From the NCBI GenBank assembly GCA_020162035.1, contig JAIUNM010000009.1, forward strand, positions 1-64,000: a stretch of 64,000 nucleotides of DNA, in the 5' to 3' direction. Below are positions 4,925 through 64,000 of the stretch, piece after piece. Below the pieces are notes generated by a model, which did no database searches, was not told the DNA's origin, and saw only the letters and a program-made list of their open reading frames with translations. The position numbers were made by a program, and so were the translations under genes. Within the stretch, counting starts at the first letter, position 1; each line of letters opens with the position of its first letter. The stretch comes from Bacteroidota bacterium (GTDB taxonomy: Bacteria > Bacteroidota > Bacteroidia > B-17B0 > Aurantibacillaceae).

Positions 4925-7582
4925 ATGAAATTTAAGGCTTTTGTTTACATTTTAATTATTAGTGTTTTTTACTCATGTAGTACAAAACGAAACACCTTTG
5001 TTAGCCGTAATTATCATAACCTTACTGCTCGTTTTAATGGATATTATTACTCTTGCGAAAATATAAATGAAGGAATTTATAAAGTAGAAAAAAACAATAA
5101 AGATAATTTCGAAAAAATTCTGCCAATTTTTATTTATCCAAGTTTAGAAAAAGCAAAAAGTACATTTCCTGAATTTGATAAAGCTATAAAAAAGTCTTCT
5201 TTTTGCATTCAAAGGCATACCATTAAAGATAAAAAGTTAAATGAAATCCCTAGTGCAGGAAAATGGATAGATAACAATTGGATTAATATTGGTATATCTC
5301 AATTCTACAAAAAAGAATATTATACTTCTTTAGAAAATTTTGAATATGTTGCCAGAACCTATACAAAAAGCCAAGATAAATACACTGCAATGCTTTGGAT
5401 TGCAAAAGTAAATAATGAAATTGGCGCAGTAAGTGTTTCTGAGCCTATTTTAAGTTTACTAAAAAATGAAAAAAAGTTGCCTAAAGATGTAAAACGAGAA
5501 TTGCCCTTAGTTGAAGCAGATTATTACATGCGACAAGGATTAAACACAGAAGCTTCAACAAAATTAATGGCGGCAGTTAGAAACAAAAATTTACTTACTG
5601 GAATTAAAAAAAGTAAAAGAGCCAGATATGCTTTTATTGTTGCTCAATTACTTGAAAAAAATAAAGATACAAAACGAGCAAAAAAATATTACGAAAAAAC
5701 AATTCAATTACACCCTCAATACGATTTAGTTTTTTACAGTAAAATAAAATTAGCTCGTATGTTGGATGTTAAACGTAACAACTCCGAAAAAACTAAAAAA
5801 GATTTATTAAAAATGGCTAAGGAGTTTAAAAACTCCGATTATTACGATGTTATTTATTATACACTTGGAGAAATTGAAGAGAAAGAAAACAATAAAGAAT
5901 TAGCTTTAACTTATTATAAAAAATCTGTTCAAACCAGTGTTGTTAATCCAAGTCAAAAAGCATTATCGTATTTAAAAATAGGTGAATTAAATTTTGAAAA
6001 AACAAATTATCAATTGGCTGGCGCATATTATGACAGTACTGTAGTTACTCTACCTAAAGATCATCCACAATATGAATTAATTGTTGCAAGAAAAAAAACG
6101 CTTGAAAATTTAGTAGCTCAAATTAATACAATTAAAAATGAAGACAGTTTGCAAAAAGTATCTAAATTATCAGAAAATCAATTAAATAATTTAATAGATA
6201 AAATAATTGAAAACGAAGAACAAGAAGAAATAAAAAGACAAAAAGAAAAAGAATTAGCTGAAAAAGCCTTAGAAACTGGCAATGCTGGAGCGTTAACAAA
6301 TAACGCTAACAATCCAGCAAACAACAATGGTTTAGCAGCAAATGGCGCTTTATTTTATTTTTATAATCCAAATACTGTTGCTTTAGGTGTTGCCGATTTT
6401 CAAAAGAAATGGGGAAATAGAAAATATGAAGATAACTGGAGGAGATCAAATAAGAGTATAACTGTTGATGATCCACTTAATAGCGATTCGAGTAATGCAA
6501 CAGCAAAAAATAAAAATTTAAATAAAAAAAGTAGAGACACTTACAAAAAAGGTTTATTTACTTCAGATAGTTTATTTGCACAAAGTAATAATAGAATTAT
6601 AGAAGCATACTACACAATGGGAGGTATTTATAAAGAAGAGTTACAAAATAACAAAAAAGCAATATCAACTTATGAAGAGTTAAACACTCGTTTCCCTACA
6701 AACAAATATTTACTTAACAATTATTACTTATTATACCGAACTCATTTAAGCGATAAAAACAGCGATAATGCTGAAGCATATAAAAATAAAATTTTAAACG
6801 AATTTCCTCAAAGCGAATTTGCTCTATTATTAAAAAACCCAGAGAACATTGAAAAAATAAATCATAAAAAAACAGAAGCAGAAACTTTTTACATTCCTGT
6901 ATATAAAGCTTACCGAAAACAAAAATATGACGAAGCTTATGCTGGAGCGCAAGAAGGAATTTTAAAATTTGGCAATAATGATTATAGACCCAGGTTTGAA
7001 TTTATAAAAGCAATTTGCGAAGGCAAGCTTAAAAGTATTGATACAATGGAAAATTCTTTAAAGTTACTTGTTGCACGTTTTCCTAAGGCCGATGTTACTC
7101 CAAATGCAAACGATATTTTACAAGCAATTAAGCGTCAAAAAAATCCTGAACTATTTGCTCCTAAAACTTCATCAAACACAAGTGTAAAAGATACTTTTTT
7201 AATTGATTTTGATAAAGAACATTATATTGTAGCTGTTTTACCCGATGATCCCAAAATTTCTAATAGCTTTAAAAGCAACCTAGATGCTTTTTGCACAAAA
7301 TATTATGCTGACAAAAGTTTTAATATTACAAGTAACATTTATACAACTGGCAAACAATTAGTTTTATTAAAATCGTTTACAAATGCATTAGACTGTAATG
7401 TTTTTGCAACAAATATGCTTAATGATAAAGATTTATTTAATGGCGATGCAAAACGCGAAATGGTTGATGTTTTCCCGATTTTAGGAAACAACCTATCTTT
7501 ACTTTACAAAACTAAAAATACCGAAGGTTACAAAACCTTTTATTTAGATAATTACAAAAACCTATCGAACAAACCTAAGTAA
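4925..7582 (+). CDS. porW: T9SS/gliding lipoprotein, PorW/SprE family
   Basis: An 885-residue TPR lipoprotein. The signal peptide ends in a lipobox with Cys18, and the mature protein starts with a conserved NYHNLTARFNGYYYSCEN-like stretch as in PorW/SprE. Several TPR-like helical repeats occupy about 130-400. A charged, then Asn/Ala-rich linker follows at about 425-470. The family signature GALFYFYNPNTVALGVADF starts at 474 and WGNRKYEDNWR lies at 496-506. More TPR-like repeats follow to about 760. In Porphyromonas and Flavobacterium this lipoprotein is needed for type IX secretion and gliding and connects the periplasmic ring to the outer-membrane translocon. Finding it fits the many T9SS cargo genes nearby. 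The family call rests on the signatures as I remember them. Confidence 0.85.
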   Translation: MKFKAFVYILIISVFYSCSTKRNTFVSRNYHNLTARFNGYYYSCENINEGIYKVEKNNKDNFEKILPIFIYPSLEKAKSTFPEFDKAIKKSSFCIQRHTIKDKKLNEIPSAGKWIDNNWINIGISQFYKKEYYTSLENFEYVARTYTKSQDKYTAMLWIAKVNNEIGAVSVSEPILSLLKNEKKLPKDVKRELPLVEADYYMRQGLNTEASTKLMAAVRNKNLLTGIKKSKRARYAFIVAQLLEKNKDTKRAKKYYEKTIQLHPQYDLVFYSKIKLARMLDVKRNNSEKTKKDLLKMAKEFKNSDYYDVIYYTLGEIEEKENNKELALTYYKKSVQTSVVNPSQKALSYLKIGELNFEKTNYQLAGAYYDSTVVTLPKDHPQYELIVARKKTLENLVAQINTIKNEDSLQKVSKLSENQLNNLIDKIIENEEQEEIKRQKEKELAEKALETGNAGALTNNANNPANNNGLAANGALFYFYNPNTVALGVADFQKKWGNRKYEDNWRRSNKSITVDDPLNSDSSNATAKNKNLNKKSRDTYKKGLFTSDSLFAQSNNRIIEAYYTMGGIYKEELQNNKKAISTYEELNTRFPTNKYLLNNYYLLYRTHLSDKNSDNAEAYKNKILNEFPQSEFALLLKNPENIEKINHKKTEAETFYIPVYKAYRKQKYDEAYAGAQEGILKFGNNDYRPRFEFIKAICEGKLKSIDTMENSLKLLVARFPKADVTPNANDILQAIKRQKNPELFAPKTSSNTSVKDTFLIDFDKEHYIVAVLPDDPKISNSFKSNLDAFCTKYYADKSFNITSNIYTTGKQLVLLKSFTNALDCNVFATNMLNDKDLFNGDAKREMVDVFPILGNNLSLLYKTKNTEGYKTFYLDNYKNLSNKPK

Positions 7583-8754: not shown

Positions 8755-8783
8755 AAAAATTTTGAACCTTAAATTTATAATTA

Positions 8784-9353
8784 ATGCCAAATTTATACAT
8801 AATAGCAGGTTGCAATGGAGAAGGTAAAACCACTGCCAGTTTAACTGTATTGCCAGATGTATTAAATTGTTTTGAATTTATTAATGCCGATAATATTGCT
8901 AAGGGCTTATCGCCTTTTAATGTTGAAGGAGTTGCAATTGAAGCCGCAAAAATAATGTTAAATAGAATAGAAGAATTAATAACTAAAGGCGTTGATTTTG
9001 CAATTGAAACAACCTTGGCAAGTAAAACTTATGCAGCATTAATTAAACGTGTAAAATTATTAGGTTATGAAGTACATTTAATATTTTTTTGGTTAAACAC
9101 TGTTGATTTAGCTATTGAACGAGTAAAACAACGTGTTTTAAATGGAGGACATAACATGCCATTAGATATTATTAAAAGGCGTTATAAAAATGGTTTAAAA
9201 AACCTAAATTTAATTTACGCATCAATTGTAGATAGTTGGACAATTTATGATAATTCGAATAATTTTCCATTACAGATAGCAAAAAAATTTAACAACGATG
9301 AGCTAATTGTAAACAATACTAATATATTTAATATTATTACAAATGAAAAGTAA
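8784..9353 (+). CDS. Zeta-toxin-like P-loop kinase
   Basis: A 189-residue P-loop protein of the zeta toxin/COG4185 group. Walker A is GCNGEGKT at 9-16, where the family norm is GPNGAGKS. An Asp lies in the NADNI segment near 36, an IETT segment near 74-77, and the characteristic ERVKQRV...GGH...IIKRRY block spans about 112-134. Zeta toxins phosphorylate UDP-N-acetylglucosamine and block wall synthesis, but many chromosomal relatives are uncharacterised, so toxicity is inference. It overlaps by 11 bases a small gene that may encode its partner. The usual epsilon antitoxin gene is not found upstream. Confidence 0.85.
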   Translation: MPNLYIIAGCNGEGKTTASLTVLPDVLNCFEFINADNIAKGLSPFNVEGVAIEAAKIMLNRIEELITKGVDFAIETTLASKTYAALIKRVKLLGYEVHLIFFWLNTVDLAIERVKQRVLNGGHNMPLDIIKRRYKNGLKNLNLIYASIVDSWTIYDNSNNFPLQIAKKFNNDELIVNNTNIFNIITNEK

Positions 9354-9528
9354 AGCAGATATATTATTTGATAAAATACATGAAGGCATTTTAAAAGCAT
9401 ACCATAAACTATTAATTGAAAAAGCAAAAAATGACGAAGAACTAATTTTTAGTATTGACAATAAAATAGTACGCATTAAAGCAAAAAAATTATTGGAGGA
9501 TAATAAAGAAAAGTCAAAACATAAATGA
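9343..9528 (+). CDS. Small protein overlapping the zeta-like kinase, possible antitoxin
   Basis: A 61-residue, lysine-rich protein with no signal or membrane segment. Residues 8-30 look helical (a KIHEGILKAYHKLL core), followed by a possible beta hairpin (ELIFSIDNKIVRIKAKKLL) and a charged tail. Its ATG lies inside the end of the zeta-like gene (11-base overlap), so the two are translationally coupled. In type II toxin-antitoxin pairs such a small coupled protein is often the antitoxin, and a toxin-first order occurs in some systems. I recognise no characterised family. The next gene is rnpB, so the pair forms a closed two-gene unit. Confidence 0.6.
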   Translation: MKSKADILFDKIHEGILKAYHKLLIEKAKNDEELIFSIDNKIVRIKAKKLLEDNKEKSKHK

Positions 9529-9642
9529 TTAATTGCAAATTAATTTCTTTAATATAGTATTTTATAAAATTTAATCAATGTTTTAAAATAAATTAATAAT
9601 TTCATTATTCCATTTAATTATTATCAAGTATTTAATTTTTAC

Positions 9643-9650
9643 TACCTTTA
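9643..9650 (+). promoter_or_regulatory. Probable rnpB promoter -7 box
   Basis: TACCTTTA matches the Bacteroidota -7 consensus TAnnTTTG except for the last base and lies a few bases before the inferred 5' end of the RNase P RNA. No clear TTG -33 box is seen at the expected spacing. Confidence 0.4.
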
Positions 9651-9653
9651 CAA

Positions 9654-10013
9654 GGCAAGTTGTTCTATCGCTGTAATTAATTTTGCAGAGGAAAGTCCGG
9701 GCAACACAGGGCAACCCACCATTTGTTAAAAATGGGTACATAATGCAACAAGTTATGTAACAGAAAGTGCCACAGAAACTAAGTAGCTATGCTTTGCATA
9801 GTGATAATGAAACAGTGAGGTAAGAGCTCACTCATTTAATTAGTAATAATTAAATGTGGTAAACCTTGGGTGTTGAAAAACCAAATAGGTTGCAAAATAC
9901 AGGCGGCCCGCTTGTTCTTAAGTATTTAAGATTTGCAATGGGTAGGTTGAAAAGATAAATGATAGATATATTCAGTTTACTGAATGAAACAGAACCCGGC
10001 TTATAAACTTGTT
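9654..10013 (+). ncRNA. rnpB: RNase P RNA (class A)
   Basis: The catalytic RNA of RNase P, which trims 5' leaders of tRNA precursors. The universally conserved 5' element GAGGAAAGTCCGGGC is at about 9688-9702. The P4-region partner ACAGAACCCGGCTTATA is at about 9989-10005. The P8/P9-to-P11-like block GTGGTAAACC...GGTTGCAAAA lies between them. The ends are set by P1 pairing of CAAGTT (9656-9661) with AACTTG (10006-10011), so they are uncertain by a few bases. It is transcribed towards the D-2-hydroxyacid dehydrogenase gene and touches its stop codon. No T-run terminator is seen between them. Confidence 0.95.
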
Positions 10014-10959
10014 ATTTTAAATTTGTAAAAATTTTTACAATATCATCAGCTATTATTTTGCTCATTTTATAATTGCTCTCGTGCGTCCAACCTGCTATAT
10101 GTGGCGTTAAAATTACTTTGTTACTACTAAGTAGATATTTAAAATCATCAGGTAATGTTTCAAAATTTATTTTTTCAAACGAAATACTTTCGTATTCTAA
10201 CACATCTAAACATGCACCTAATACCTTATTTTCTATTAAAGCATTTACTAATGCTTTTGTATTTAAGCATTTTCCTCTGGCTGTATTTATAAAATAAATT
10301 GGCTTTTTAAATGCATTAAAAAATGAAACATCAGCATAATAATTTGTTTCTTCAGTTAAAGGTAAATGTAAACTAACAATATCAGCCTCATTATATATTG
10401 TTTCTATAGTTACTTCTTTAACTTTATCAGTACCAAAATTTTGTTTGTATTTATCGCATGCAATTATATTACAGTTAAAGCCACCTAATTTTTCAGCAAA
10501 ACTTGTTCCCATTTGGCCATAACCAATTATAGCAACAGTTTTACCTTCTAGTTCAAAACCTCTATTTTCAGCACGTAACCAAATTCCATCTCTTACTTCT
10601 GCATCAGCTTTTTTTAAATTATTCATTAACATTAAAAGCATACCAAGAGCATGTTCGCCAACAGCATTTCTATTTCCTTGTGGCGCACTTAAACATAAAA
10701 TGTTTTTACTTTTTGCAAATTCAACATCAATGTTTTCCATTCCTGCTCCTACTCTGCCAATTACTTTTAATTTTGGGCAAACACTTAAAATTTCTTTAGT
10801 TAATTTAAATTTACTTCTAATCACTATACCATCGTAATTAGGTAAAATATTAATTAACTCATCAGCACTTAAATTCCAAAATTTATCAATCTCAAATTTG
10901 TTCTCAACTAAAATCTCTTCTAATATTTCATGATTTTTATCTGCTAATAGTATTTTCAT
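10012..10959 (-). CDS. D-2-hydroxyacid dehydrogenase (phosphoglycerate dehydrogenase-like)
   Basis: An NAD-dependent D-isomer-specific 2-hydroxyacid dehydrogenase. The closest functional type by sequence is 3-phosphoglycerate dehydrogenase (SerA), which would feed serine synthesis. The nucleotide-binding motif GYGQMG is at 146-151 (numbered from the chosen start), the substrate-binding RVGAGMENID block at about 70-79, the catalytic Arg is in NTARG, and the catalytic His is in TPHIAGWTHES near the C-terminus. There is no ACT domain. The start is ATG 10957-10959 (MKILLADKN). A longer TTG-initiated form would run into a CATCTTTG element that looks like the promoter, so I rejected it. The gene converges on rnpB. 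Confidence 0.88.
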   Translation of the reverse strand: MKILLADKNHEILEEILVENKFEIDKFWNLSADELINILPNYDGIVIRSKFKLTKEILSVCPKLKVIGRVGAGMENIDVEFAKSKNILCLSAPQGNRNAVGEHALGMLLMLMNNLKKADAEVRDGIWLRAENRGFELEGKTVAIIGYGQMGTSFAEKLGGFNCNIIACDKYKQNFGTDKVKEVTIETIYNEADIVSLHLPLTEETNYYADVSFFNAFKKPIYFINTARGKCLNTKALVNALIENKVLGACLDVLEYESISFEKINFETLPDDFKYLLSSNKVILTPHIAGWTHESNYKMSKIIADDIVKIFTNLK

Positions 10960-11222
10960 AAGAAATAATGTGCAAAGATGCAAAGAGTTTAATAAATAAT
11001 TCTTAATTAAAAGTATAATTAAGCAATTTAATAATTAACAAATACTACACAAAATTTATGTTTATAAATTAAAATTTCTAATTATTAACAAATATAAAAG
11101 TGTAAAATGCTGGTAAACAACTATAAACAAAAGCGTATTTAGTTTTAAACACATTTTTAAACATGCTTTAAATTTTGTAAATTTATTATGAGCTAAAAAT
11201 ATCGCATTTTTGCCCTCCCACT

Positions 11223-12803
11223 ATGAATAACGATAACTCAAATAAAACACGCAAAAGTATATTACGCAATCAACAACCAATTGCATTAAGCGAAATGGGT
11301 AAACTACCACCGCAAGCTGTTGATTTAGAAGAGGCAGTTTTAGGAGCTATGTTGCTTGAAAGAGAAGCACTTAGTAACGTTATAGATATTTTATCGGATA
11401 AAGCATTTTATAAAGAACAAAACGGTAGAATTTATGCAGCAATTGTATCGCTATTTAACAGATCTGAACCAGTTGATATTTTAACGGTTACTCAAGAATT
11501 AAAACGAAGTGGTGAGTTAGATTATGTTGGTGGAGCATATTATATATCATCGTTAACCAATAGAATTGCGTCATCTGCTAATATAGAATTTCATGCCCGT
11601 ATTGTAGCTCAAAAATTTTTACAACGCGAATTAATTAGAATAAGCACCGACACTATAAAAACTGCATATGAAGACAGTACAGATGTTTTTGGTTTATTAG
11701 ATGAAACAACAAAAAATATTTTTGAAATATTAGACTCTAATGTTCGTAAACAACACGACAAAATGAGCACTCTTATTAGTAAAGCTATTGAAGAAATTGA
11801 AACTGCATCTAACCAAGCCGATGGCTTAAGTGGTGTGCCAAGTGGCTTTACCGCCTTAGATAGAATTACTGGTGGTTGGCAAAAATCTGATTTATTAATT
11901 TTAGCTGCTCGCCCTGGTATGGGTAAAACAGCTTTTGTTGTTAGTATGGCAAAAAATGCTGCAGTGCAATTTAAAAAACCTGTTGCTATTTTTAGTTTAG
12001 AGATGAGTAGCTTACAATTAGTAAAGCGTTTAATAAGTAGCGAAACAGAAATTGCACAAGATAAAATTTTAAAAGGTAATTTAGAAAATCATGAATTTGT
12101 TCAATTAAACGAACGTATAAAAAACCTTGCTGTTGCTCCATTGTATATTGACGATACTCCTGCTTTATCTATTTTTGAATTAAGAGCTAAAGCTCGAAGA
12201 TTAAAAGAAAACCAAAAGGTAGAAATGATTATTATTGATTACCTTCAATTAATGAGTGGTGGGCCAGATGGAAAAGGAAATCGTGAACAAGAAATTAGTA
12301 CAATATCTAGAGGGTTAAAAAGTTTAGCTAAAGAACTTGAAATTCCAATAATTGCTTTATCTCAATTAAGCCGCCAGGTAGAAAACAGACCTGGTGGAAG
12401 TAAACGTCCGCAATTAAGTGATTTACGTGAATCGGGCGCAATTGAGCAAGATGCGGATATGGTTATGTTTATTTATCGTCCAGAATATTATGGATTAGAA
12501 GTAGATGAAGAGCAACAACCAACTAAAGGAAGAGGCGAATTAATTATTGCGAAAAACAGACATGGTGCATTAGATACAGTTAAACTAAGGTTCTTGGGGC
12601 AATTTGCTAAGTTTGCAGATTTAGATTATACCGAAGGAAGCGATGTTATATACTCACATAATACAAATACAACCTTACAACAAAACGATTCTTTTTTAAA
12701 TAATGAAGGCCAAAATGTAAAAACGATGGAATCGAAAAATTGGAATAAAGTAGATGACAACAATGCTGATATAGTTAAAAGAAACGACATTGAAGATTTT
12801 TGA
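11223..12803 (+). CDS. dnaB: Replicative DNA helicase DnaB
   Basis: The hexameric 5'-3' helicase of the replication fork. The N-terminal domain (about residues 28-130) begins with the PPQAVDLEEAVLGAMLLE block. The RecA-like domain has Walker A ARPGMGKTAF at about 229-238, Walker B MIIIDYLQLM near 335-344, and the SQLSRQVENR motif with its arginine finger region. The length of 526 residues includes an Asn-rich C-terminal tail (about 475-526) without known function. It is followed 13 bases later by a cytochrome c-like lipoprotein and then by ruvX. The upstream 239 bases are AT-rich; I see no clear TAnnTTTG box there. Confidence 0.97.
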   Translation: MNNDNSNKTRKSILRNQQPIALSEMGKLPPQAVDLEEAVLGAMLLEREALSNVIDILSDKAFYKEQNGRIYAAIVSLFNRSEPVDILTVTQELKRSGELDYVGGAYYISSLTNRIASSANIEFHARIVAQKFLQRELIRISTDTIKTAYEDSTDVFGLLDETTKNIFEILDSNVRKQHDKMSTLISKAIEEIETASNQADGLSGVPSGFTALDRITGGWQKSDLLILAARPGMGKTAFVVSMAKNAAVQFKKPVAIFSLEMSSLQLVKRLISSETEIAQDKILKGNLENHEFVQLNERIKNLAVAPLYIDDTPALSIFELRAKARRLKENQKVEMIIIDYLQLMSGGPDGKGNREQEISTISRGLKSLAKELEIPIIALSQLSRQVENRPGGSKRPQLSDLRESGAIEQDADMVMFIYRPEYYGLEVDEEQQPTKGRGELIIAKNRHGALDTVKLRFLGQFAKFADLDYTEGSDVIYSHNTNTTLQQNDSFLNNEGQNVKTMESKNWNKVDDNNADIVKRNDIEDF

Positions 12804-31020: not shown

Positions 31021-34000
31021 ATGAAAAATTTTTTAATCATTCTGTTCATTCTTATAGGCTTATCTATTCAAGCTCAAACTAGTTGCGCAAGTGCTGCACC
31101 TTTTTGTGCTGGTGGAACATCAGGTGTTACTTTTCCTGCAACCGTTAATGGTCCTCCTGCACCAGTTGGCCCTGCATATGGCTGTTTAGGCTCTCAGCCA
31201 AACCCAGCTTGGTATTATTTACAAATAAGTTCGCCAGGCAATTTAGATTTATATATTGCAGGTTCAGGTGGGGCTGATGTTGATTTTATTTGTTGGGGGC
31301 CTTTCCCTAACCTTTCAGCAGCTTGTGCTAATTTAACTGCAGGTAATATTGTAGATTGTAGTTATTCTAGTAGTCCAACCGAAACGTGCAACATTGTTTC
31401 AGCCCCTACAGGTTCTTTTTATATGGTTTTAATAACAAACTACGCAAATATTGCACAAAACATCATTTTTAATCAAATTGGAGGCACAGGCTCTACAAAC
31501 TGTAGTATTTTGGCCTCAAGCAGTACAATATGCGCGGGTTCAACCGCTGTAATTACGGCAAGTAATAGTAGTAACTTAACTAGCCCTGTTTATTCTATTA
31601 ACCCAGGCAGTGGAACAAGTACTAATCCATCATTTACAGTTTCACCTGCTGTTACAACAACTTACGTTGTATCAGTTACTGGTCAAAACACTTCAGGCTC
31701 TACTATTACCCAAACAGCAACTGCAATAGTTACAGTTTATCCTAAACCAACAGTAGCACCCTCACTAACGCAAGCAACCTGTACAAACCCAAATAATGCA
31801 TTTAACCTTAATTTAAATTTTTTACCACCTACTCCAGTCCCTACATATACAATATCCTGGAGCCCTACACCTGCAGGTATTATATCTAATACACAATACA
31901 CTGCGGCAAATGTACCATCAGGCACATACAACGCAACTATAACTGCACAAGGAGGGTGTACAGCCACAACTAGTATAACAATGATTGATATGACTGCCCC
32001 TACTTTAACCGTATTAAACACCACAGGTTCATTTTCAATCACATGTGCTTCTCCAAGTGTTTGTATGACAGCCCAAACTACTCCAGCAAATTGTTCTTAT
32101 TTTTGGACAAATTCTGCTGCTACGTTTACATCTAATGCCCAAAGTGTTTGTACTAGTACTGTAGGCTCTTATACCGTTGTAGTTACTCACCCTTCAAATA
32201 CTTGCACTGCAACTCAAACATTAGCAATTGCAATGAATACAACTGCACCAACAGGTACTGTTAGTCCAACTTCTGTAACAATAAATTGTAGTTCAAATGC
32301 ACCTACATTTACAGCATCTGTAATTACACCAACGTCAAATATGCAAATTCAATGGTTTACTACCACAACTGTTGGTATTATACCTGGACCAGTTTATATT
32401 AACACAATTTCAATTCAAGCATTAGGACCAGGAACTCACGTAGCAACTTTTTCTAATACTGTTAATGGCTGTACTCAATCTAAAACTGTTACCGTTGTAA
32501 CAACCACAACATTCCCTACTTTTATACCAACTAGCAATACAAATTTCACTGTTGGTTGTGCTCCAAGTCATACAACTACTTTATGTTTTGGTTCTCCAAA
32601 TTCTGCAAATGGCTCAGTAGATTTTTGTTTTTACCCAGGCTCAACAATGACAACCTCAATTCCAAGTGGTTCATTTAGCGGTAGCCCTGGCGCATCTTGT
32701 TTAACTACAAGCATAACAGGCCAATGGAATTTAGTTTTAAGAGATGTTGTTAGTGGTTGTCAAACTTCATTACCTGTATATGTTATTGCAAATACAGTTC
32801 AGCCACATGTTCAATATACTATGCCAACAAATACATTAATGTGCCATACACCTTCATTTATGGCTGTTGGAAGCAGCACAACCATAAACACAAACGTTGT
32901 GTGGAATTACCCTGTGCCGCCACCAAATACTACTACAGGCTCATCTATAAACATTGGAGCAACTGGTTTTGGACCAAGTACTTGTACAAATTGTGCTGGC
33001 GCGTATGGTGTTTACACGGTTGTTGTAACAAATACTGTAAACTCTTGTAGAAGTACTCAAACTGTTGGTATTGATCAAAATTTTTTATTACCAAGAATGG
33101 TAACAAATTTAAGTACGCCTAATTTCTTTTCTTGTAAAACAAATACAGTTGGAATTAATGTAAGTTTAGTTTATGTTGGTACTAGTACTGCAAATGTAAT
33201 TTCTGCCACAAATACATTTGTTGTTCCTGTTGGCACATCTACTTTATATACTTTAGGTGGGCCAGGTGTTGTTTCTGTTATAGTACCGGATATTGTAGTT
33301 CCAAACACATCAACTTTAATTACACAAGGCAATTTTAATGGTTGTATTTCAACTTCAGTAGTAACAATAAACGGCGATTATACAAAACCAGTTATTGCAC
33401 CATCACAAAATTACACATTAGATTGTGCTGTTAGCGCATCTGTTGTTGGTGTTCCAATTCGTGTGGTTTTAAGTAATTCGTTATCTGCATGGTCTGTTCT
33501 TTATAAAAATTATCCAGCAGGGACATCTTTTTCACCATTAAGTTTTATCACACCTCCAGTTGGAGGAACATGTTCTCCTGGTGTAATTAGCCCTACTGTA
33601 GTAGTAGACAAAGCTGGAACATATGAATATGTTGTTACAAATAACGTAACAGGTTGTTATGAATTTGCAACTTTAAATGTATTACCTGGATTTATAAATG
33701 CAAGCATGAATGCTTCAGCAGAATCTGGGTTTGCACCATTAACTGTTTATTTCAATAACACAAGTGCATCAGCAGGTACATTAAACGCAAGCTCAAATGT
33801 TATTTCTAATTGGAGTTTTGGAAATGGAACGTATTCTGCTTCAATTTCAAACTCAATTTCAACAGGTGCAACATATGTAAACCCAGGCACCTATACTGTT
33901 TTATTAATTAGTTCAAAAGGCGAATGTATTGATAGTACTTTTAAAATAATAAAAGTAGATATTCCTTCTAAATTAGAAATACCAAATATTTTTACACCAA

Positions 34001-34248
34001 ATGGAGATAATTCTAACGACATTTTCTTTGTTAAAGCTAGTAATTTATCCAAAATTGAAGCTGTTATTTTTGATAGATGGGGAAATAAAGTGTATGATGT
34101 TAATTCAAATACAGGAAATATTGCTTGGGATGGTAAAAACTTTGCCGGAATGGAATGTGCAGCAGGAACATATTTCTATATAATTAAAGCAGAAGGTAAA
34201 GATGGTGCTACTTATGAGAAAAAAGGTTCTGTATCCTTAATGCGATAG
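31021..34248 (+). CDS. Secreted PKD-type protein with T9SS type B C-terminal domain
   Basis: A 1075-residue exported protein with a signal peptide (about 1-19, ending IQAQ). The body (about 20-890) is Thr/Ser/Asn-rich with repeated Ig/PKD-like beta modules and paired cysteines. A PKD-like module is near 897-965 (SGFAPLTVYFNNTS). The last 90 residues begin IPNIFTPNGDNSNDIF and contain FDRWGNKVYD, the gliding-motility-associated type B sorting domain recognised by the T9SS. The protein should end up outside the outer membrane, attached or released. No enzyme domain is recognisable. A strong terminator follows at 34272. Function is probably adhesive or structural, by inference. Confidence 0.9.
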   Translation: MKNFLIILFILIGLSIQAQTSCASAAPFCAGGTSGVTFPATVNGPPAPVGPAYGCLGSQPNPAWYYLQISSPGNLDLYIAGSGGADVDFICWGPFPNLSAACANLTAGNIVDCSYSSSPTETCNIVSAPTGSFYMVLITNYANIAQNIIFNQIGGTGSTNCSILASSSTICAGSTAVITASNSSNLTSPVYSINPGSGTSTNPSFTVSPAVTTTYVVSVTGQNTSGSTITQTATAIVTVYPKPTVAPSLTQATCTNPNNAFNLNLNFLPPTPVPTYTISWSPTPAGIISNTQYTAANVPSGTYNATITAQGGCTATTSITMIDMTAPTLTVLNTTGSFSITCASPSVCMTAQTTPANCSYFWTNSAATFTSNAQSVCTSTVGSYTVVVTHPSNTCTATQTLAIAMNTTAPTGTVSPTSVTINCSSNAPTFTASVITPTSNMQIQWFTTTTVGIIPGPVYINTISIQALGPGTHVATFSNTVNGCTQSKTVTVVTTTTFPTFIPTSNTNFTVGCAPSHTTTLCFGSPNSANGSVDFCFYPGSTMTTSIPSGSFSGSPGASCLTTSITGQWNLVLRDVVSGCQTSLPVYVIANTVQPHVQYTMPTNTLMCHTPSFMAVGSSTTINTNVVWNYPVPPPNTTTGSSINIGATGFGPSTCTNCAGAYGVYTVVVTNTVNSCRSTQTVGIDQNFLLPRMVTNLSTPNFFSCKTNTVGINVSLVYVGTSTANVISATNTFVVPVGTSTLYTLGGPGVVSVIVPDIVVPNTSTLITQGNFNGCISTSVVTINGDYTKPVIAPSQNYTLDCAVSASVVGVPIRVVLSNSLSAWSVLYKNYPAGTSFSPLSFITPPVGGTCSPGVISPTVVVDKAGTYEYVVTNNVTGCYEFATLNVLPGFINASMNASAESGFAPLTVYFNNTSASAGTLNASSNVISNWSFGNGTYSASISNSISTGATYVNPGTYTVLLISSKGECIDSTFKIIKVDIPSKLEIPNIFTPNGDNSNDIFFVKASNLSKIEAVIFDRWGNKVYDVNSNTGNIAWDGKNFAGMECAAGTYFYIIKAEGKDGATYEKKGSVSLMR

Positions 34249-49096: not shown

Positions 49097-51610
49097 ATGA
49101 ACGGACAAGAAATAAAAGCCGAATTACAACAGGTATTAGACAGTGATATTCAGTTAAGAAAAGAATTCATCGAACTAAAACGCTCTTTAGGCGAATACCG
49201 TAACCAGCTAATTATGCGTGAAGAAGATTGCAAACGCTTGCAAGTTACTATTGATGTTTTAAATACCAAACTTGCAGTAATGGAGCGAGATAACACCAAT
49301 TACAAAGCAGAACTTACAGCGTTTAAAGAGTTAAGAGGAAATATAAAGGAGCAATTACAACAAAAGCAAGACGAAATAGATAATCGCTTAAACGAAATTG
49401 AGCAATTAAGAGGTGAACTTTCTACAATATCTGAACAATACGAACAGCAACTTAATGAGGTTAAAATTGCTGCCGAAACAAATTTAGAAACAGTTACAAA
49501 TCAATTTCAAAATCAAATAAACGAATTAAAATCAAACTCGCATTACAAAGAAAGTGGAATTAAACAAGAATTTGAAAACGAATTAAATTTAATAAACGAA
49601 TCGTTTGCTGATAAAGAACAAGCTATTACTTTAAAACATACAGACGAAATAACATCTATTAAAAATAATTACGAAACTGAACTTACTTTTTTAAAGAACG
49701 AACACGCTCAAACTTTAAATCAAATTCAAACAACAAATGCAGATGAATTAAACACCCTAATTCATTCGCATAAAGTTACAATTTCAAAATTAGAAGAAGA
49801 GTTTTCTCAAAAGTTAGAATCGACTGAATATAATTTAAACAACCAAATTATAGCATTAAAATTAGAAAATGAAGAGCAACGCCATATTTTAACTTCAAAC
49901 TTTCAAACCGAAATAGATTTATTAAAAAAATCTAATTTGGAAGCCGAGCAAACTTTAATTGAAAAATACGAAACTCAACTTTCAAATCTTCAAAACAACA
50001 ATTCAGAAACAACAAATAATATTCATCAATCCTTTGAACAACAAATTTCTGAATTAAAACTTCAACACAGTTCAACTATTGAAGAGTTAACAACAAGCAA
50101 CCAATTAAATTTAAATAATACAATTAACGAATATGAATTAAAATTAAGCAACACATTAATTCATAGTAATGAGCAAAACTCTAAGCTTAATGATGAAATA
50201 AATAAATTAATGTTGCAAACAGATGAGTTAAGAGAAGATGTTAAAAATTTAAGCATTACAATTGATAATAACTCTGCAACAATTACAGATTTAAGAGAAA
50301 GTAATGCCAACTTAATTATTCAATTTGAAAATGAAAAACAAAATCATTTAAGTGTTACACAAGAGTTTGAAAGCTTTAAGCACACTTCATCTCTTTCATC
50401 ATCAGAGCAAGTAAATGCTTTAAACATACAAATAGAAAATTTAAATAACGATATTCAAAATGTAAGTAAATTGTTTGAAGAGAATACAAACATTTTAGCC
50501 GAAACAGAAAACAAATTAGAAAGTGCATTAGAATCAAATTCATTACTAAATAATACAAATTCACAACTAAATACTGAATTAGAAAACACGATTTTAAAAC
50601 AAAACGAACTTACTGAAGTAACTTACAATAATGAAATAACCATTAATTCGTTAACTACTGAAGTTGATAATTTAACAACAGCAAATACTTTTTTACAAAA
50701 CGAAATAGTAAACTTACAAAGCACTGTTGAAGGATTAAATAACAAACTGGATACTCAAAAAATTGATTTTGAAACTGTACATAACCAAAACAACTTAACC
50801 AATAATTTAGAATTTGAAAAATTATTGGCAGAAAATTCGAATTTAATTTCAGAGATTGAAAGTGTTCAATTAAACCTCGAATCTAAAAGCAATGAACTAG
50901 AAATTTTAAAAGCAGAGTTTGACGATTTAAATTCAAAAACTGTAGGAAAAGTAGAAGATTTAAAAGAAACATTAAATACTAAAAATTTTGAATTAACTAA
51001 CCTAACAGGAACAAATGCTGCATTAACTGCCGAAAACGATTTATTAAAATCAGAAATCGAAAATTTAAAATTAAACTTACAAAATTCTGAAGTTGCTAGC
51101 GAAGGTTTTAATGCCCTACAAAATAATTTTGAAAATTTAAGTTTAGAAAAAAACAATTTATTGTCTGATATTGCAAATATGCAATTAACTATAGGAACGT
51201 TAAATGAAAGTATTTCAGAATTAAATTCTAAAATTAATAATTACGAAGTACAATTAAGCAATCCTATTTCTTCAACCAACGAAACTGACTTAAATAATAA
51301 ACTAGAACAACAAGAAGCTTATATAGACAAATTATTTAAACAAATAGATTTGTTAAGTGATGAACGCTTAAATTTATTAAGTGAAAAAGAACAAATGGCA
51401 AACCAATTGCTAAAAATGAATGATGTGGTTAGTGAAATATCGCAACAGATTGATAGTGAGAGTATTAATGTAAAAGATTTGAATAATCACAGAAAAAACA
51501 TTATCTTAGCAAATAGTTCTCAAATGACTGGTGAAAGTGGTCAAATGAAACAACAAATAAACGATTTGGTGCGTGAAATTGATAAGTGTATTGCTTTATT
51601 AAGTGCTTAA
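49097..51610 (+). CDS. Long coiled-coil protein upstream of zapA
   Basis: An 837-residue protein that is almost entirely predicted coiled coil, rich in Glu, Asn, Leu, Lys and Gln, with no signal peptide or membrane helix. Residues 1-80 (MNGQEIKAELQQVLDSDIQ ... LAVMERDN) and the last 100 (QIDLLSDERLNLLSEKEQM ... VREIDKCIALLSA) are less repetitive and look conserved. The middle has heptad-like stretches with several variants of SNLQNNNSE/LNxEI. It ends 17 bases before zapA. Many Bacteroidota carry a short coiled-coil gene at this place, so this may be an enlarged version acting with ZapA and FtsZ. That role is inferred from position only. Confidence 0.85.
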   Translation: MNGQEIKAELQQVLDSDIQLRKEFIELKRSLGEYRNQLIMREEDCKRLQVTIDVLNTKLAVMERDNTNYKAELTAFKELRGNIKEQLQQKQDEIDNRLNEIEQLRGELSTISEQYEQQLNEVKIAAETNLETVTNQFQNQINELKSNSHYKESGIKQEFENELNLINESFADKEQAITLKHTDEITSIKNNYETELTFLKNEHAQTLNQIQTTNADELNTLIHSHKVTISKLEEEFSQKLESTEYNLNNQIIALKLENEEQRHILTSNFQTEIDLLKKSNLEAEQTLIEKYETQLSNLQNNNSETTNNIHQSFEQQISELKLQHSSTIEELTTSNQLNLNNTINEYELKLSNTLIHSNEQNSKLNDEINKLMLQTDELREDVKNLSITIDNNSATITDLRESNANLIIQFENEKQNHLSVTQEFESFKHTSSLSSSEQVNALNIQIENLNNDIQNVSKLFEENTNILAETENKLESALESNSLLNNTNSQLNTELENTILKQNELTEVTYNNEITINSLTTEVDNLTTANTFLQNEIVNLQSTVEGLNNKLDTQKIDFETVHNQNNLTNNLEFEKLLAENSNLISEIESVQLNLESKSNELEILKAEFDDLNSKTVGKVEDLKETLNTKNFELTNLTGTNAALTAENDLLKSEIENLKLNLQNSEVASEGFNALQNNFENLSLEKNNLLSDIANMQLTIGTLNESISELNSKINNYEVQLSNPISSTNETDLNNKLEQQEAYIDKLFKQIDLLSDERLNLLSEKEQMANQLLKMNDVVSEISQQIDSESINVKDLNNHRKNIILANSSQMTGESGQMKQQINDLVREIDKCIALLSA

Positions 51611-58567: not shown

Positions 58568-59125
58568 TTAAATTTTTCCTTCGTTTATTAAAATTTTTGT
58601 TTTTAATATTCCTACCATACTTAATGAATCGGTAATTTCTCCATTTAATACCATTTGATAGGCTTTTTCGAATGGAATTTTTTTAATTATTAAATCTTCA
58701 CTTTCTTCAGGTTCAGATTCTTCGAACTTTAAATTTTGAGCTAAAAAAATATGGCAATATTCGTTTGTGGCCGAATTGCTTGTATGCATATTGCATAAAA
58801 GTGTATATTTTTCAGCTACAATACCTGCCTCTTCTTTTAATTCGCGTTTGGCCGATTCTATTGGAGCAATGTTTAATGGGCCTCCACCCTCAATAATTTC
58901 CCAACTGTATTGTTTTAATGGGAAACGCCATTGTCCAACAATCCAAGTATTATAATTTTCATCTAAAGGTATAATTCCAATGGCTAAATTTTTAAACTGA
59001 ACAGTTCCATAAATCCCTGGCTTATTAGCAGGATTAATTACTTCATGGTGACTAACTTCTATCCAAGGGGTTTCGTAAACCGTTTTTGATGAATTTATTT
59101 TCCATGGGTTTTTAATTTGGCTCAT
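58568..59125 (-). CDS. Nudix hydrolase (ADP-ribose pyrophosphatase type)
   Basis: A 185-residue Nudix hydrolase with the layout of ADP-ribose/GDP-mannose pyrophosphatases. The Nudix box (about 80-101) keeps RELKEEAG, but the position of its first conserved Glu (GX5E) is occupied by Ile in GGGPLNIAPIESAKREL. The catalytic metal-binding glutamates of REXXEE are kept. ATG 59123-59125 (MSQIKNPWKIN) is chosen; a TTG 9 codons upstream is possible but less likely. It lies 37 bases upstream of the isomerase gene. Confidence 0.88.
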   Translation of the reverse strand: MSQIKNPWKINSSKTVYETPWIEVSHHEVINPANKPGIYGTVQFKNLAIGIIPLDENYNTWIVGQWRFPLKQYSWEIIEGGGPLNIAPIESAKRELKEEAGIVAEKYTLLCNMHTSNSATNEYCHIFLAQNLKFEESEPEESEDLIIKKIPFEKAYQMVLNGEITDSLSMVGILKTKILINEGKI

Positions 59126-59239
59126 AAGTAAAATTTCGTCTAAAGAAAACAAATAAATACATTAATTTTAATGAGTTAACATAAATTTTAGTATATTTAA
59201 CCTTATAATTTTTAAATTGTAAAAATACGTTAAAATTTT

Positions 59240-62200
59240 ATGCGATTGGTTACTAAAACTAGGCTCTTAATAATACTTTTATTTACAGCTATAAATATTT
59301 CTAGCTTTGCTCAAGATTTACATTGGATTGGTGGATCGGGAAGTTTTAATGACCCCAACCATTGGAGTTTTGTTAAAAACGGTAAAGCCTCTGGCACTAT
59401 TCCTAATAAAAACACTTCAATTTACTTTGATTCTGACTTAAACAATGGAACTTTTGTAATTAATTTTGTTGGGGCAAGCAATTTTAAAAGCTTAGTAGCT
59501 TCAACAAGTTTATCACAATATCATTTTGTTTTTTCTAATTTTTCTGAAACAAGTATTTGGGGTGATTTTGAGTTAAATCCCAATATTAAATTAACAGGTT
59601 CTGGCAAATTCATTTTTAATAACGAAGGCCAACAAGCAAAAGTTAATTTTTTAAATCAAATTTACCAAGGTGATGTTATATTTAAAGGAGGAAATTGGAA
59701 TATCAAAAGCATAAATACATCTGATGATAAAAATGTAATACTAGAATCTGGTAGTTATACACTAAATAATGCAAGAATTAATACAGGAAATTTTATTAGC
59801 AATAAGGGTTTAGTTTCAATCAAAAATAACACTTCAATTATTGATGTTAAAAATAATTTTGAAATTGGTAACAACACTACATTTAACTCTGATGGTTTGT
59901 ATGTAAAAGCTCCATTAGATGCGACTCATTATAAAATTGCAAATGGTGTAAATTTTGGAAACAATTACAAAACTTTAAATTCTGCTTTTGCTGTTTGTGG
60001 AGCTACTTTAAGCTCTGTTGGTATTTCATGTTCGGGTATTTGCGATGGTCAATTAATTTTAGGGATAGACCCAACGTGTGTTGGCGCACCATTTTCGCTA
60101 ATTTGGAGTAATCCATCTTGTGCTACGCCTACTTTAAATAATGTTGGCACAGGTACTTTTACAATTACAAATTTATGCGCCTGTGCTGACTTTTACAGTG
60201 TTTTAGTATTTGATAATTTAGGGAATTTATTAACTATTTCTAACGCAGTAAATATTCCAGGTCAATCTGCTATTAATTTTGTACCAATATTTTTTACACA
60301 ACCATTATGTAATGGAAACTGTAATGGTTCAATTGTATCTAACTTAAGTGGTAGCGTTGGCCCATACACTGTAACGGTAAATGGAGGTTCTGTAATTCCA
60401 GTACCTTCGGGTAACACAACTTATTCTATGTTATGTGGTGGCACTAACTCTTTTAGCGTAATTGATACAAAAGGATGTTTAAGAAATTTCACTATAAATC
60501 TTAACCAACCTCCAACTTTATCATTAACATCAACAACATCAAGCTTAAGTTGTAATGCAGTTTGTAATGGTTCAATTGTAATAAATCCTACTGGTGGCAC
60601 ACCAAATTATACAATTAACAGTTCAGTGCCAACAACAAACACATTAAGTTCTGGAGGTAGTATGACTTTAACAGGGTTATGTCAAGGCGTTGTAACATCT
60701 ACAATAACTGATTCAAAAGGCTGTTTTATAAATCCTTCTTTTACAATAACGCAACCTCCACCTTTATCTGCAAGTGTAACTCAAACAAATGTTGCTTGTT
60801 TTGGTAATTGTACAGGTATAGCGTCAGTAACTGCTTCAGGGGGTACAAGCCCATACACATTTACTTGGAGTGCTGGTGGGGCTGGAAGTTCTATAAATTC
60901 TACTTTATGTGCAGGTCCTAAAACGGTTACTATAAGTGATGCGAATAATTGTTTATTGCCGCAAACACTTACTATAACTCAATCTCCATCTGTTACAATT
61001 TCTATCACACAAACAAATGTTACTTGTAATGCGCAATGTAATGGGGCAGCAAGTGTAACCGCATCTGGTGGTGCAGGAGCTTTTACATTTACATGGGTTG
61101 CTCCAAGTAGCGCAACTATTTCAAACTCGCAAAGTGTAAATGCATTGTGTGCGGGAGTTTATACTATTTTTGTTAAAGATTTAAATAATTGTTTAACTCA
61201 AAGTTTAGTAACAATTACACAACCTCCTGCGCTAACTATTACTGCTCAAACGCAAAGCATACAATGTTTTGGTTCATGTAGTGGTGCGGCAACAGTTGTA
61301 GTAACTGGGGGTAATGGGGCGCCATACACACCAATTTGGTCTCCAAGCGGATCTGGCACTTTAACCAGCTCAATGTGCGCTGGTAATTACACTGTATCAG
61401 TAACAGATGCATCAGCTTGTCCAATTAGTACAGTATTTACAATAGCACAACCATCATCTATTACAATTAATGTTAGTACTACAAGTTTATCGTGTAATGG
61501 GGTTTGTAACGGAGTAATTAATTTTACAACTTCGGGAGGGGTGCTTCCAATGGCTACTCCAACATTAATTTCAACTTCAAGCACAATTGTAGCTTCTCCA
61601 CCTTACAATTCACTTTGTGCAGGAAATTACACTTTACTTATTAAAGATGCTTCGAGTTGCGTACAATCGCAAACTATAAACCTGGCAGAACCAAATTTAT
61701 TAACCAGCAATGTTACAACAAATTCAGTTACTTGTTTTAATGCGTGTAACGGTTCTCTTTCAGGTAGTGCTGTTGGAGGAACACCTGGGTACACGTTAAG
61801 CTGGGCAACATCAACAAGTGTTATCCCTGGCGGTATAATTGTTGGTGCATGTGCTGGTACATACACATTTCAAATTTTAGATGCTAATGGTTGTTCAAGC
61901 AACTCTGTTGTTACTATTAATCAACCACCTGCATTAACCACTACAATAAATTCTACAAGTCCTTTATGTTTTTCGGGGTGTAACGGAATTTTAAATGCAA
62001 ATGTTTCGGGTGGAGTACCTGGTTATACTTTAAATTGGTCAAATGGTTTTACTGGTAATCCAAACGTTGGATTATGTGCAAATGGATATACATTAACAGT
62101 AAACGATGCAAACGGTTGTTCTGATACATTTACTGCTTCTGTTTTAGCACCTTCTCCAATGACAATAAACGTAACAACTTCTTCTGTTACTTGTGCAGGA

Positions 62201-64000
62201 AGTTGTAATGGTGGTGCAAGTGTAACTGTAGTTGGTGGTGCACCTAGTTTTACATATTCATTTAATTCTGCTCCTGTAATTACAAATACTACAGGTATTG
62301 CTTCTGGCTTATGCTCTGGGCCTTTTATAGTAAATGTAACGGACGCAAATGGATGTGTTCAAAATCAAAATTTTAACATTACACAACCTATAGCTTTAAG
62401 TGCAGCAATTACAGGTACTCAAAATAGTTGTAATGCATGTACAGGTGCTGGTACAGTAACAGCATCTAATGGAACACCTCCCTATTCTTTTGTTTGGACA
62501 AACTCATTAAGCGCAACAGTTTCTACAGTTTCTACAGCTAACAATTTATGTCCAGGTAATTATACCATTACAGTTACAGATGTTAATAGTTGTACAACAA
62601 CATTAACATACTCCGTTTCGCAAGTTATTAATGTTATTGTAGTGGCTAGTGGCACTACAATTCCTTGTTTTGGGGCATGTACAGCATCGGCTCAAGCAAA
62701 TGCAGTTGGAGGCACTTTACCTTACACTTACACATGGAATGTAACAGCACCTACGCAAACAACACAAACAGCTACAAATTTATGTTTCGGAACTTATACG
62801 GTTAATGTTTCAGACGCATTAGGTTGTTCAAACACAGCAACTGTTAATTTTGCAAATCCTCCGGCTATAGTAATTGCTCCAACAAAAACAAATGTTACAT
62901 GTTTTAGTCAATGTAACGGAATTATAAACTCTAATGCTTCTGGAGGAACTGGAGCTTTAACATTCACCTGGTTACCAGGAGGACAAAACACTAGCTCAAT
63001 AACCGGACAATGTGCAGGAAATTATACTGTTATTGTAAAAGATGCTAATGGGTGTACACAAAGTGCAACAATTAACATTAGTCAACCACCTGCTTTAACT
63101 GGTACAATTAATACAACTAATCCTAGTGCTTGTATTGTAAATAACGGTAGTATATGTGTTACACCATCTGGAGGAAATGGTCCTGCATATTCATTTACAT
63201 GGGCTCCCGCAGGTGGAATAGGCATAAATACAAGTTGCTATTCAAATTTAAGTGCGGGTTTATATTCAGTAATAGTTTCTGATGCTTTAGGTTGTTTAAA
63301 CACATTAACAGCAAATATAAGTTCACCCACAGGGCCAACCCTAACAATTAACACAGCATCTATTAGCTGCTTTGGTAACTCTAACGGTGGTGCAACTGTT
63401 ACTGCAAATGGCACGCCTGGGTTTACGTTTACTTGGACTCCTGCGGTTTCATTTGTTAACTTAGGAAACACAAGTACAGCATCAAGTATGACATCTGGCA
63501 CTTACAACATTGGTGTTACTGATGGAAATGGCTGTGTAGTAAATCAAACAATTGGTATTGTTCAATCACCTTCATTAAACGTAAATTCAACTTTATCAAA
63601 TTTATCTTGTAACAGTATATGTAATGGTTCAATAACATTAAATACAACCGGTGGAACTCCATCATACACTTTTGCGTGGCTACCAATTGCACCTCCAATT
63701 ACTGGCCAAGGCACACAAACAATTACAAATTTATGTGTAGGCAATTATAGTGTAAATATTACAGATGCTGCAAGTTGTGTAGTTACAAGAACTTTTGTAA
63801 TTACCCAACCTCCTCCAATTGAAGCTACTGTTACGCCTCATAATTTGTTATGTAACAGTGTATGTAATGGTTCAATTACAACATTAAGTAATGGTGGAAC
63901 TGCACCATTAAATTTCACATGGACACCAGTAGGAGGATTTGGAGGAGCAATAACACCAACAATAGTTAATTTATGTGCTAATATTTATACCCTAACTATT
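59240..64000 (+). CDS. Giant secreted SprB-repeat protein, partial (3' end outside window)
   Basis: An open frame of 1587 codons from ATG 59240 to the window edge without a stop. The signal peptide ends near residue 25 (SSFAQ). A domain starting HWIGGSGSFNDPNHWSF (about 28-250) resembles the WxGGxGxWxDxxHWS module of Bacteroidota surface proteins. From about residue 255 there are at least 17 repeats of roughly 78-82 residues, each with CNxxCNG, a SGGxxPYTFTW-like stretch, LCAGxYT and a NGC/SSC near the end. These match SprB-type repeats of the gliding adhesin SprB. A T9SS type B domain is expected at the unseen C-terminus. It is probably an adhesin or gliding-related surface protein. Confidence 0.9.
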   Translation, partial: MRLVTKTRLLIILLFTAINISSFAQDLHWIGGSGSFNDPNHWSFVKNGKASGTIPNKNTSIYFDSDLNNGTFVINFVGASNFKSLVASTSLSQYHFVFSNFSETSIWGDFELNPNIKLTGSGKFIFNNEGQQAKVNFLNQIYQGDVIFKGGNWNIKSINTSDDKNVILESGSYTLNNARINTGNFISNKGLVSIKNNTSIIDVKNNFEIGNNTTFNSDGLYVKAPLDATHYKIANGVNFGNNYKTLNSAFAVCGATLSSVGISCSGICDGQLILGIDPTCVGAPFSLIWSNPSCATPTLNNVGTGTFTITNLCACADFYSVLVFDNLGNLLTISNAVNIPGQSAINFVPIFFTQPLCNGNCNGSIVSNLSGSVGPYTVTVNGGSVIPVPSGNTTYSMLCGGTNSFSVIDTKGCLRNFTINLNQPPTLSLTSTTSSLSCNAVCNGSIVINPTGGTPNYTINSSVPTTNTLSSGGSMTLTGLCQGVVTSTITDSKGCFINPSFTITQPPPLSASVTQTNVACFGNCTGIASVTASGGTSPYTFTWSAGGAGSSINSTLCAGPKTVTISDANNCLLPQTLTITQSPSVTISITQTNVTCNAQCNGAASVTASGGAGAFTFTWVAPSSATISNSQSVNALCAGVYTIFVKDLNNCLTQSLVTITQPPALTITAQTQSIQCFGSCSGAATVVVTGGNGAPYTPIWSPSGSGTLTSSMCAGNYTVSVTDASACPISTVFTIAQPSSITINVSTTSLSCNGVCNGVINFTTSGGVLPMATPTLISTSSTIVASPPYNSLCAGNYTLLIKDASSCVQSQTINLAEPNLLTSNVTTNSVTCFNACNGSLSGSAVGGTPGYTLSWATSTSVIPGGIIVGACAGTYTFQILDANGCSSNSVVTINQPPALTTTINSTSPLCFSGCNGILNANVSGGVPGYTLNWSNGFTGNPNVGLCANGYTLTVNDANGCSDTFTASVLAPSPMTINVTTSSVTCAGSCNGGASVTVVGGAPSFTYSFNSAPVITNTTGIASGLCSGPFIVNVTDANGCVQNQNFNITQPIALSAAITGTQNSCNACTGAGTVTASNGTPPYSFVWTNSLSATVSTVSTANNLCPGNYTITVTDVNSCTTTLTYSVSQVINVIVVASGTTIPCFGACTASAQANAVGGTLPYTYTWNVTAPTQTTQTATNLCFGTYTVNVSDALGCSNTATVNFANPPAIVIAPTKTNVTCFSQCNGIINSNASGGTGALTFTWLPGGQNTSSITGQCAGNYTVIVKDANGCTQSATINISQPPALTGTINTTNPSACIVNNGSICVTPSGGNGPAYSFTWAPAGGIGINTSCYSNLSAGLYSVIVSDALGCLNTLTANISSPTGPTLTINTASISCFGNSNGGATVTANGTPGFTFTWTPAVSFVNLGNTSTASSMTSGTYNIGVTDGNGCVVNQTIGIVQSPSLNVNSTLSNLSCNSICNGSITLNTTGGTPSYTFAWLPIAPPITGQGTQTITNLCVGNYSVNITDAASCVVTRTFVITQPPPIEATVTPHNLLCNSVCNGSITTLSNGGTAPLNFTWTPVGGFGGAITPTIVNLCANIYTLTI
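60024..64000 (+). repeat. SprB-type tandem protein repeat array
   Basis: At least 17 diverged units spaced about 225-246 bases apart, starting near 60027, 60306, 60549, 60795, 61022, 61263, 61490, 61731, 61964, 62189, 62427, 62663, 62899, 63130, 63366, 63607 and 63850. The reading frame is constant. The units are similar as protein but clearly diverged as DNA, so the array is old rather than recently amplified. Confidence 0.85.

Follow-up and report, generated by a model that had tools for sequence, protein, structure and literature searches.

In Flavobacterium johnsoniae, the adhesin SprB is encoded in the operon sprC-sprD-sprB-sprF, and its carrier SprF has a periplasmic C-terminal tail with a Cys-X-Cys motif that is bonded to Cys343 of GldK, which ties SprF to the moving track (PMC12635249). 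This disulfide was reported in 2025 as the route by which force reaches gliding adhesins (PMC12635249): when either SprF cysteine is replaced, SprB is still exported to the surface but gliding is abolished, and a SprF free of cysteines still shows brief movement along the track (PMC12635249). In PorK the residue bonded to PorG is Cys356, and the cysteine arrangements of PorG differ between species (PMC12635249), so the hook rule may fail in species that are not closely related to F. johnsoniae. Among the type B adhesins of F. johnsoniae itself, some are static (PMC12618676); static Fjoh_3952, as well as PG1035 of Porphyromonas gingivalis, is linked to PorE-like proteins, whereas mobile adhesins are not (PMC12618676, PMC9143113). 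Tandem Ig-like domains are also found in GhpA of Aureispira sp. CCB-QB1 (PDB 9flw, 9fly and 9flp), and the grappling hooks of Aureispira are secreted by the T9SS (PMC11205867).

The window (the whole stretch of 64,000 nucleotides analysed here, which is positions 1-64000 of its contig) belongs to a genome of 3.17 Mb that is 99.98% complete, and it ends inside a giant gene (Table 1). The first-pass annotation had described this frame as open for 1587 codons from 59240, with a signal peptide, a WxGGxG...HWS module and at least 17 SprB-type units, and all of these points hold: the frame begins with an ATG and has no stop before the window end, the N-terminus is signal-peptide-like, the module is present (WIGGSGSFNDPNHWS), and 16 units found by a profile begin before codon 1587, preceded by one divergent unit. 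Past 64000 the frame continues to a stop at contig base 67792, giving a protein of 2,850 aa in which Thr, Ser, Asn and Gly are abundant (Cys, 4.1%; mature mass, ∼288 kDa; pI 4.4). It carries an Ig_7 domain (Pfam; residues 2597-2678) and, at its C-terminus, a type B sorting domain (CHU_C; residues 2763-2844 of 2850), both beyond the window; the C-terminus scores 62.2 bits with TIGR04131 (cut-off 35) and 82.5 bits with PF13585 (cut-off 27). The Pfam SprB-repeat model (PF13573) matches the in-window part with E=1.7e-63 and the whole protein with E=2e-123 (402 bits; cut-off 28), 21 stretches passing on their own. Thus neither an early stop without a sorting domain nor a lack of matches to the repeat model, which the annotation had named as fatal to its reading, was found. 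About 20 sampled genomes, and most of 80 further loci examined by name, encode the same type of protein (mostly 2,800-3,500 residues) together with the carrier gene described below, which excludes a chance origin of the frame. The gene is thus real and complete, and its product is a SprB-repeat surface protein of the T9SS type B kind with its own carrier, conserved across Bacteroidia.

Table 1. Features of the adhesin gene and of a T9SS gene in the window
Feature	Coordinates	Strand	Basis or remark
PorW/SprE T9SS periplasmic lipoprotein	4925..7582	+	NF052312, 617 bits, cut-off 250
Giant SprB-repeat adhesin gene, in-window part (codons 1-1587)	59240..64000	+	open frame and profile matches
Signal peptide, residues 1-24 (MRLVTKTRLLIILLFTAINISSFA)	59240..59311	+	sequence; cleavage site placed by eye
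N-terminal head domain, residues 25-250, W-x-GG-x-G...D..HW motif	59312..59989	+	predicted parallel beta-helix
Divergent first SprB-like unit, ∼residues 253-331	59996..60232	+	CSGICDG motif at 264; missed by unit HMM
SprB-type unit array, residue 332 onward	60233..64000 (in-window)	+	PF13573 and unit HMM

An HMM of the repeat unit built in this study finds 29 strong units of 74-82 aa in residues 332-2587 and one weak extra unit at 2695-2749. The units are diverse, with a mean pairwise identity of 33% among 26 aligned ones. Three units are predicted to be all-beta (pLDDT 91.9), with matches to Ig-like domains. Among solved structures GhpA is the nearest relative, both when the unit profile is compared with PDB sequences (E=1.4e-20) and when the unit fold is compared with solved structures (Foldseek E=1.2e-6; Z 10.2, rmsd 5.6 over 219 residues); single-sequence phmmer with the whole adhesin finds no relative in PDB.

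Each unit has four recurrent cysteine positions. In the adhesin itself the second and the third are each cysteine in 20 of the 26 aligned units, and in units from 20 genomes both are present in 447 cases, neither in 163 and only one in 7; in a larger set, which in part repeats the same species, the corresponding counts are 1351, 422 and 18 (17+1). As units share descent, a Fisher p-value for this co-occurrence is not to be read as a probability. Since discordant units are nearly absent, Cys2 and Cys3 are likely to form a second disulfide, with Cys1-Cys4 as the putative constant pair. A literature search found no paper joining 'SprB repeat' and 'disulfide'.

The array is conserved unit by unit. 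With the nearest relative (L114) all 29 units are colinear reciprocal best matches, and 28 are colinear with those of a second genome (G002); a third of the same genus (G014, 26 units) fits after allowing for a four-unit insertion. In more distant relatives fewer units are colinear (16 in L128), and in the remotest loci colinearity is gone; the number of units is still about 30 there, as in most full-length relatives. A recently expanded array is ruled out by the counterparts in the nearest relative and in the two other genus members; together with a number that stays near 30, they indicate that the array behaves as a rod of near-fixed length.

The head domain that precedes the array has its motif residues (W, G, G, D, H and W) invariant in 31 sequences. 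It is predicted to be all-beta (mean pLDDT 86.7, mostly above 90 over residues 25-250). VIA-align matches it to parallel beta-helix proteins, the best being ORF18 of Geobacillus virus E2 (7chu; Z 11.4, rmsd 3.4 over 196 residues), with tapirin (6n2b) a close second. These alignments and the strand pattern of the predicted structure suggest that the head is a parallel beta-helix, which points to a fold and not to a function; Foldseek with the head returns nothing significant, and a head-domain profile has no convincing match among PDB sequences. In four same-genus genomes (G004, G005, G009 and G024), all of which have gldJ, the head is unmatched; this may reflect loss, divergence or missing sequence.

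One base pair downstream of the adhesin gene lies a gene for a 307-aa carrier of the PorP/SprF family (67794-68717, plus strand; TIGR03519, 293 bits), which has no cysteine at all. Single-sequence phmmer finds no relative of it in PDB. A scan of the genome collection for its relatives gave the same picture: a cysteine in the C-tail, taken as the part that follows the last strand, is found in 0 of the best 80, which, being the best matches to this carrier, describe its clade and not all SprB carriers. They come nearly all from uncultured Bacteroidia (Crocinitomix catalasitica is included), and in most a SprB-array protein is encoded in the frame before the carrier, the close adjacency being repeated. 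The carrier tail pattern FS[RK]KQxxxW, or something near it, is kept within the genus; among these 80 it is not kept beyond the nearest relatives. The next gene after the carrier encodes an amino-acid permease, and the adhesin locus has no PorE-like gene and neither sprC nor sprD beside the adhesin.

The locus resembles SprB-SprF of F. johnsoniae in its SprB repeats, great length, type B sorting domain and carrier gene immediately downstream. It differs in that SprB has 6,497 aa (2,850 here), SprF has the Cys-X-Cys motif (none here), and in place of the sprC-sprD-sprB-sprF order there is a divergent upstream gene of 194 aa (58568-59152, minus strand; Nudix hydrolase-like). With the static set Fjoh_3952-Fjoh_3951-Fjoh_3950 (adhesin, carrier and PorE-like protein) it shares a type B adhesin adjoining its cognate carrier, but a PorE-like gene follows there and none follows here. 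PG1035-PorP-PorE is similar in that a PorP-family protein holds a type B protein on the surface of a T9SS bacterium; P. gingivalis, however, is non-gliding, has the PorE partner, and no SprB array is reported for PG1035 (PMC12618676, PMC9143113). Identity with the SprB gliding adhesin is only partly supported: the tail cysteines and the operon context do not agree, and other features do.

Gliding of the organism is plausible, because the genome encodes the gliding-associated lipoproteins GldB, D, H and J as well as GldK, L, M and N, SprA and SprE. GldB, D, H, K, L, M, N, SprA (2354 bits) and SprE exceed their cut-offs; GldJ is found with E=1e-113, its pieces scoring slightly below the curated cut-off, which is the case in nearly the whole genus. 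The search, which covered these genes, thus recovered the gldK-N and sprA genes that the annotation had said to look for, and its PorW/SprE homologue at 4925 is well supported (Table 1). We observed a porP-gldK-L-M-N cluster, and PorU beside gldJ. In GldK, Cys388 aligns with Cys356 of PorK in PDB 9ots, i.e. the acceptor cysteine is kept. With the Gld set in place, a reading of this genome as non-gliding was rejected. The suggestion that the organism may glide thus stands on its Gld set and T9SS; as evidence for it, the adhesin gene is weak.

A different carrier of this genome does have tail cysteines. A PorP-family gene directly beside gldJ encodes twin cysteines at positions -16 and -4 of a tail ending in CPSF in 21 out of 21 genus members, and in other families of the class (G032 not counted) every readable gldJ-adjacent copy has the -4 cysteine, most having both. 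The porP-gldJ pair has PorU divergent beside it (L032:5072-7741, minus strand, and 7933-11892, plus strand). Adhesin-side and gldJ-side carriers fall into separate clades of the carrier tree, with low support for the SprB-linked clade (0.52) and none for the node uniting all gldJ-side carriers (0.02). The gldJ-adjacent twin-cysteine PorP may be the real track-linked carrier.

The genome has 34 type B domains over the cut-off (12 type B proteins in total are reported for F. johnsoniae; PMC12618676) and 14 carrier-family matches. When the two lists of places are compared, eight type B genes are found immediately ahead of a carrier gene, so that some 26 are orphans. No substrate gene adjoins the gldJ-side carrier, and in this it is like the orphan carrier Fjoh_1677, which serves several orphan adhesins (PMC12618676); it is thus a candidate server of the orphan type B adhesins. 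Four other carriers (L061, L064, L065 and L067) have genes for TPR and/or PD40 proteins next door, a PorE-like make-up; a carrier with such a neighbor is the arrangement that has been proposed for adhesins with a static anchor. As a candidate for PorG, we considered an outer-membrane-like protein of 241 aa that has a cysteine in its tail (L025:6929-7654), but it matched no family.

The known disulfide hook to GldK is not available to a carrier without cysteine, and with this hook unusable the adhesin is most likely a T9SS adhesive filament to which the track gives no covalent drive, the gldJ-side carrier being the likelier track rider in this lineage; we put the probability of this reading at roughly 0.57. 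The adhesin would first be exported by Sec, after which its type B C-terminal domain would take it through the SprA translocon; it would then be handed to its own PorP/SprF carrier and held in the outer membrane by its C-terminus. The ∼30 Ig-like SprB units, most of them with two putative disulfides, would make a rod of near-fixed length that carries the beta-helix head outward, the head being the probable binding end. Such a filament would be adhesive but without covalent drive by the track, on which the cysteine carrier of the gldJ side would ride.

In the strongest rival reading the protein moves in gliding as SprB does, and non-covalent contacts of its carrier, or an adaptor, would couple it to the GldJ/K/N track. 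It is consistent with the Gld, SprA and SprE proteins listed above, with the class-wide conservation of the adhesin/carrier pair and with the brief track contact that a cysteine-free SprF keeps in F. johnsoniae, and the operon has no PorE-like gene, as is the case for mobile F. johnsoniae adhesins. The tail pattern common to the carriers of the genus also speaks for this reading; however, it is lost outside the nearest relatives, loss of the cysteines abolishes gliding in F. johnsoniae, and here cysteines are kept by the gldJ-side carrier instead. With no tail cysteine, yet no PorE-like gene, the two published predictors disagree for this adhesin/carrier pair. SprB repeats and type B domains do not decide the matter: several other proteins of this genome have SprB repeats, and together with the 34 type B domains and the static examples of F. 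johnsoniae this means that neither feature is specific to moving adhesins. We therefore retain the 'SprB-like adhesin' of the first-pass annotation, which the repeats, the type B domain and the PorP/SprF carrier support, but not an equation with the mobile gliding adhesin, as Cys-X-Cys is missing from the carrier and from all 80 of its clade. Drive of this adhesin by the gliding track is the less probable state of affairs, and a mobile adhesin coupled without the disulfide is unlikely, if far from negligible.

It is much less probable that the filament has another role, for example capture of prey or particles, as a grappling hook like that of GhpA might do. Profile and fold both place GhpA closest to the units among solved structures, but the similarity is that of a generic Ig-like rod: GhpA is a T9SS-secreted protein of 5,898 aa that forms a heptameric hook, the adhesin has half this length and is alike at the unit level only, and GhpA does not occur among the head matches listed. 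Draft genomes often misassemble repeats, but a misassembled or decayed gene can be dismissed here, as the frame is intact, all 29 units have colinear reciprocal best matches in a related genome, and the length is nearly equal in many independent assemblies.

Returning to the filament without covalent drive, we tentatively propose, with the odds somewhat against it, that type B adhesins include a third class conserved across Bacteroidia. Its members would have a rod of ∼30 units and a carrier with neither the GldK hook nor a private PorE anchor, and an undescribed link would hold or move them; the true track rider of these same genomes would be the cysteine-tailed carrier beside gldJ, serving the many type B adhesins that are orphans. 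A widespread SprB-repeat adhesin without the hook either marks a limit of the disulfide mechanism or means that many 'SprB-like' gliding markers are not motility adhesins. Tail cysteines offer a simple sequence criterion, which singles out the gldJ-adjacent carrier in uncultured lineages.

Other genes in and near the window were also noted. A second type B sorting domain in the window (33976-34245; 53.7 bits) ends a protein of ∼1,075 aa encoded at 31021-34248 (plus strand), and none of the 14 carrier-family matches of the genome lies beside this gene. Downstream, L006:12023-15550 (plus strand) encodes a large protein whose N-terminal part, by eye, resembles a propeller and whose other end resembles a SpoIIE-like phosphatase. 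Also by eye, the gene at 49097-51610 of the window (plus strand) encodes an 837-aa low-complexity, coiled-coil-like protein and lies just upstream of a ZapA-like gene and an RNase Y-like one.
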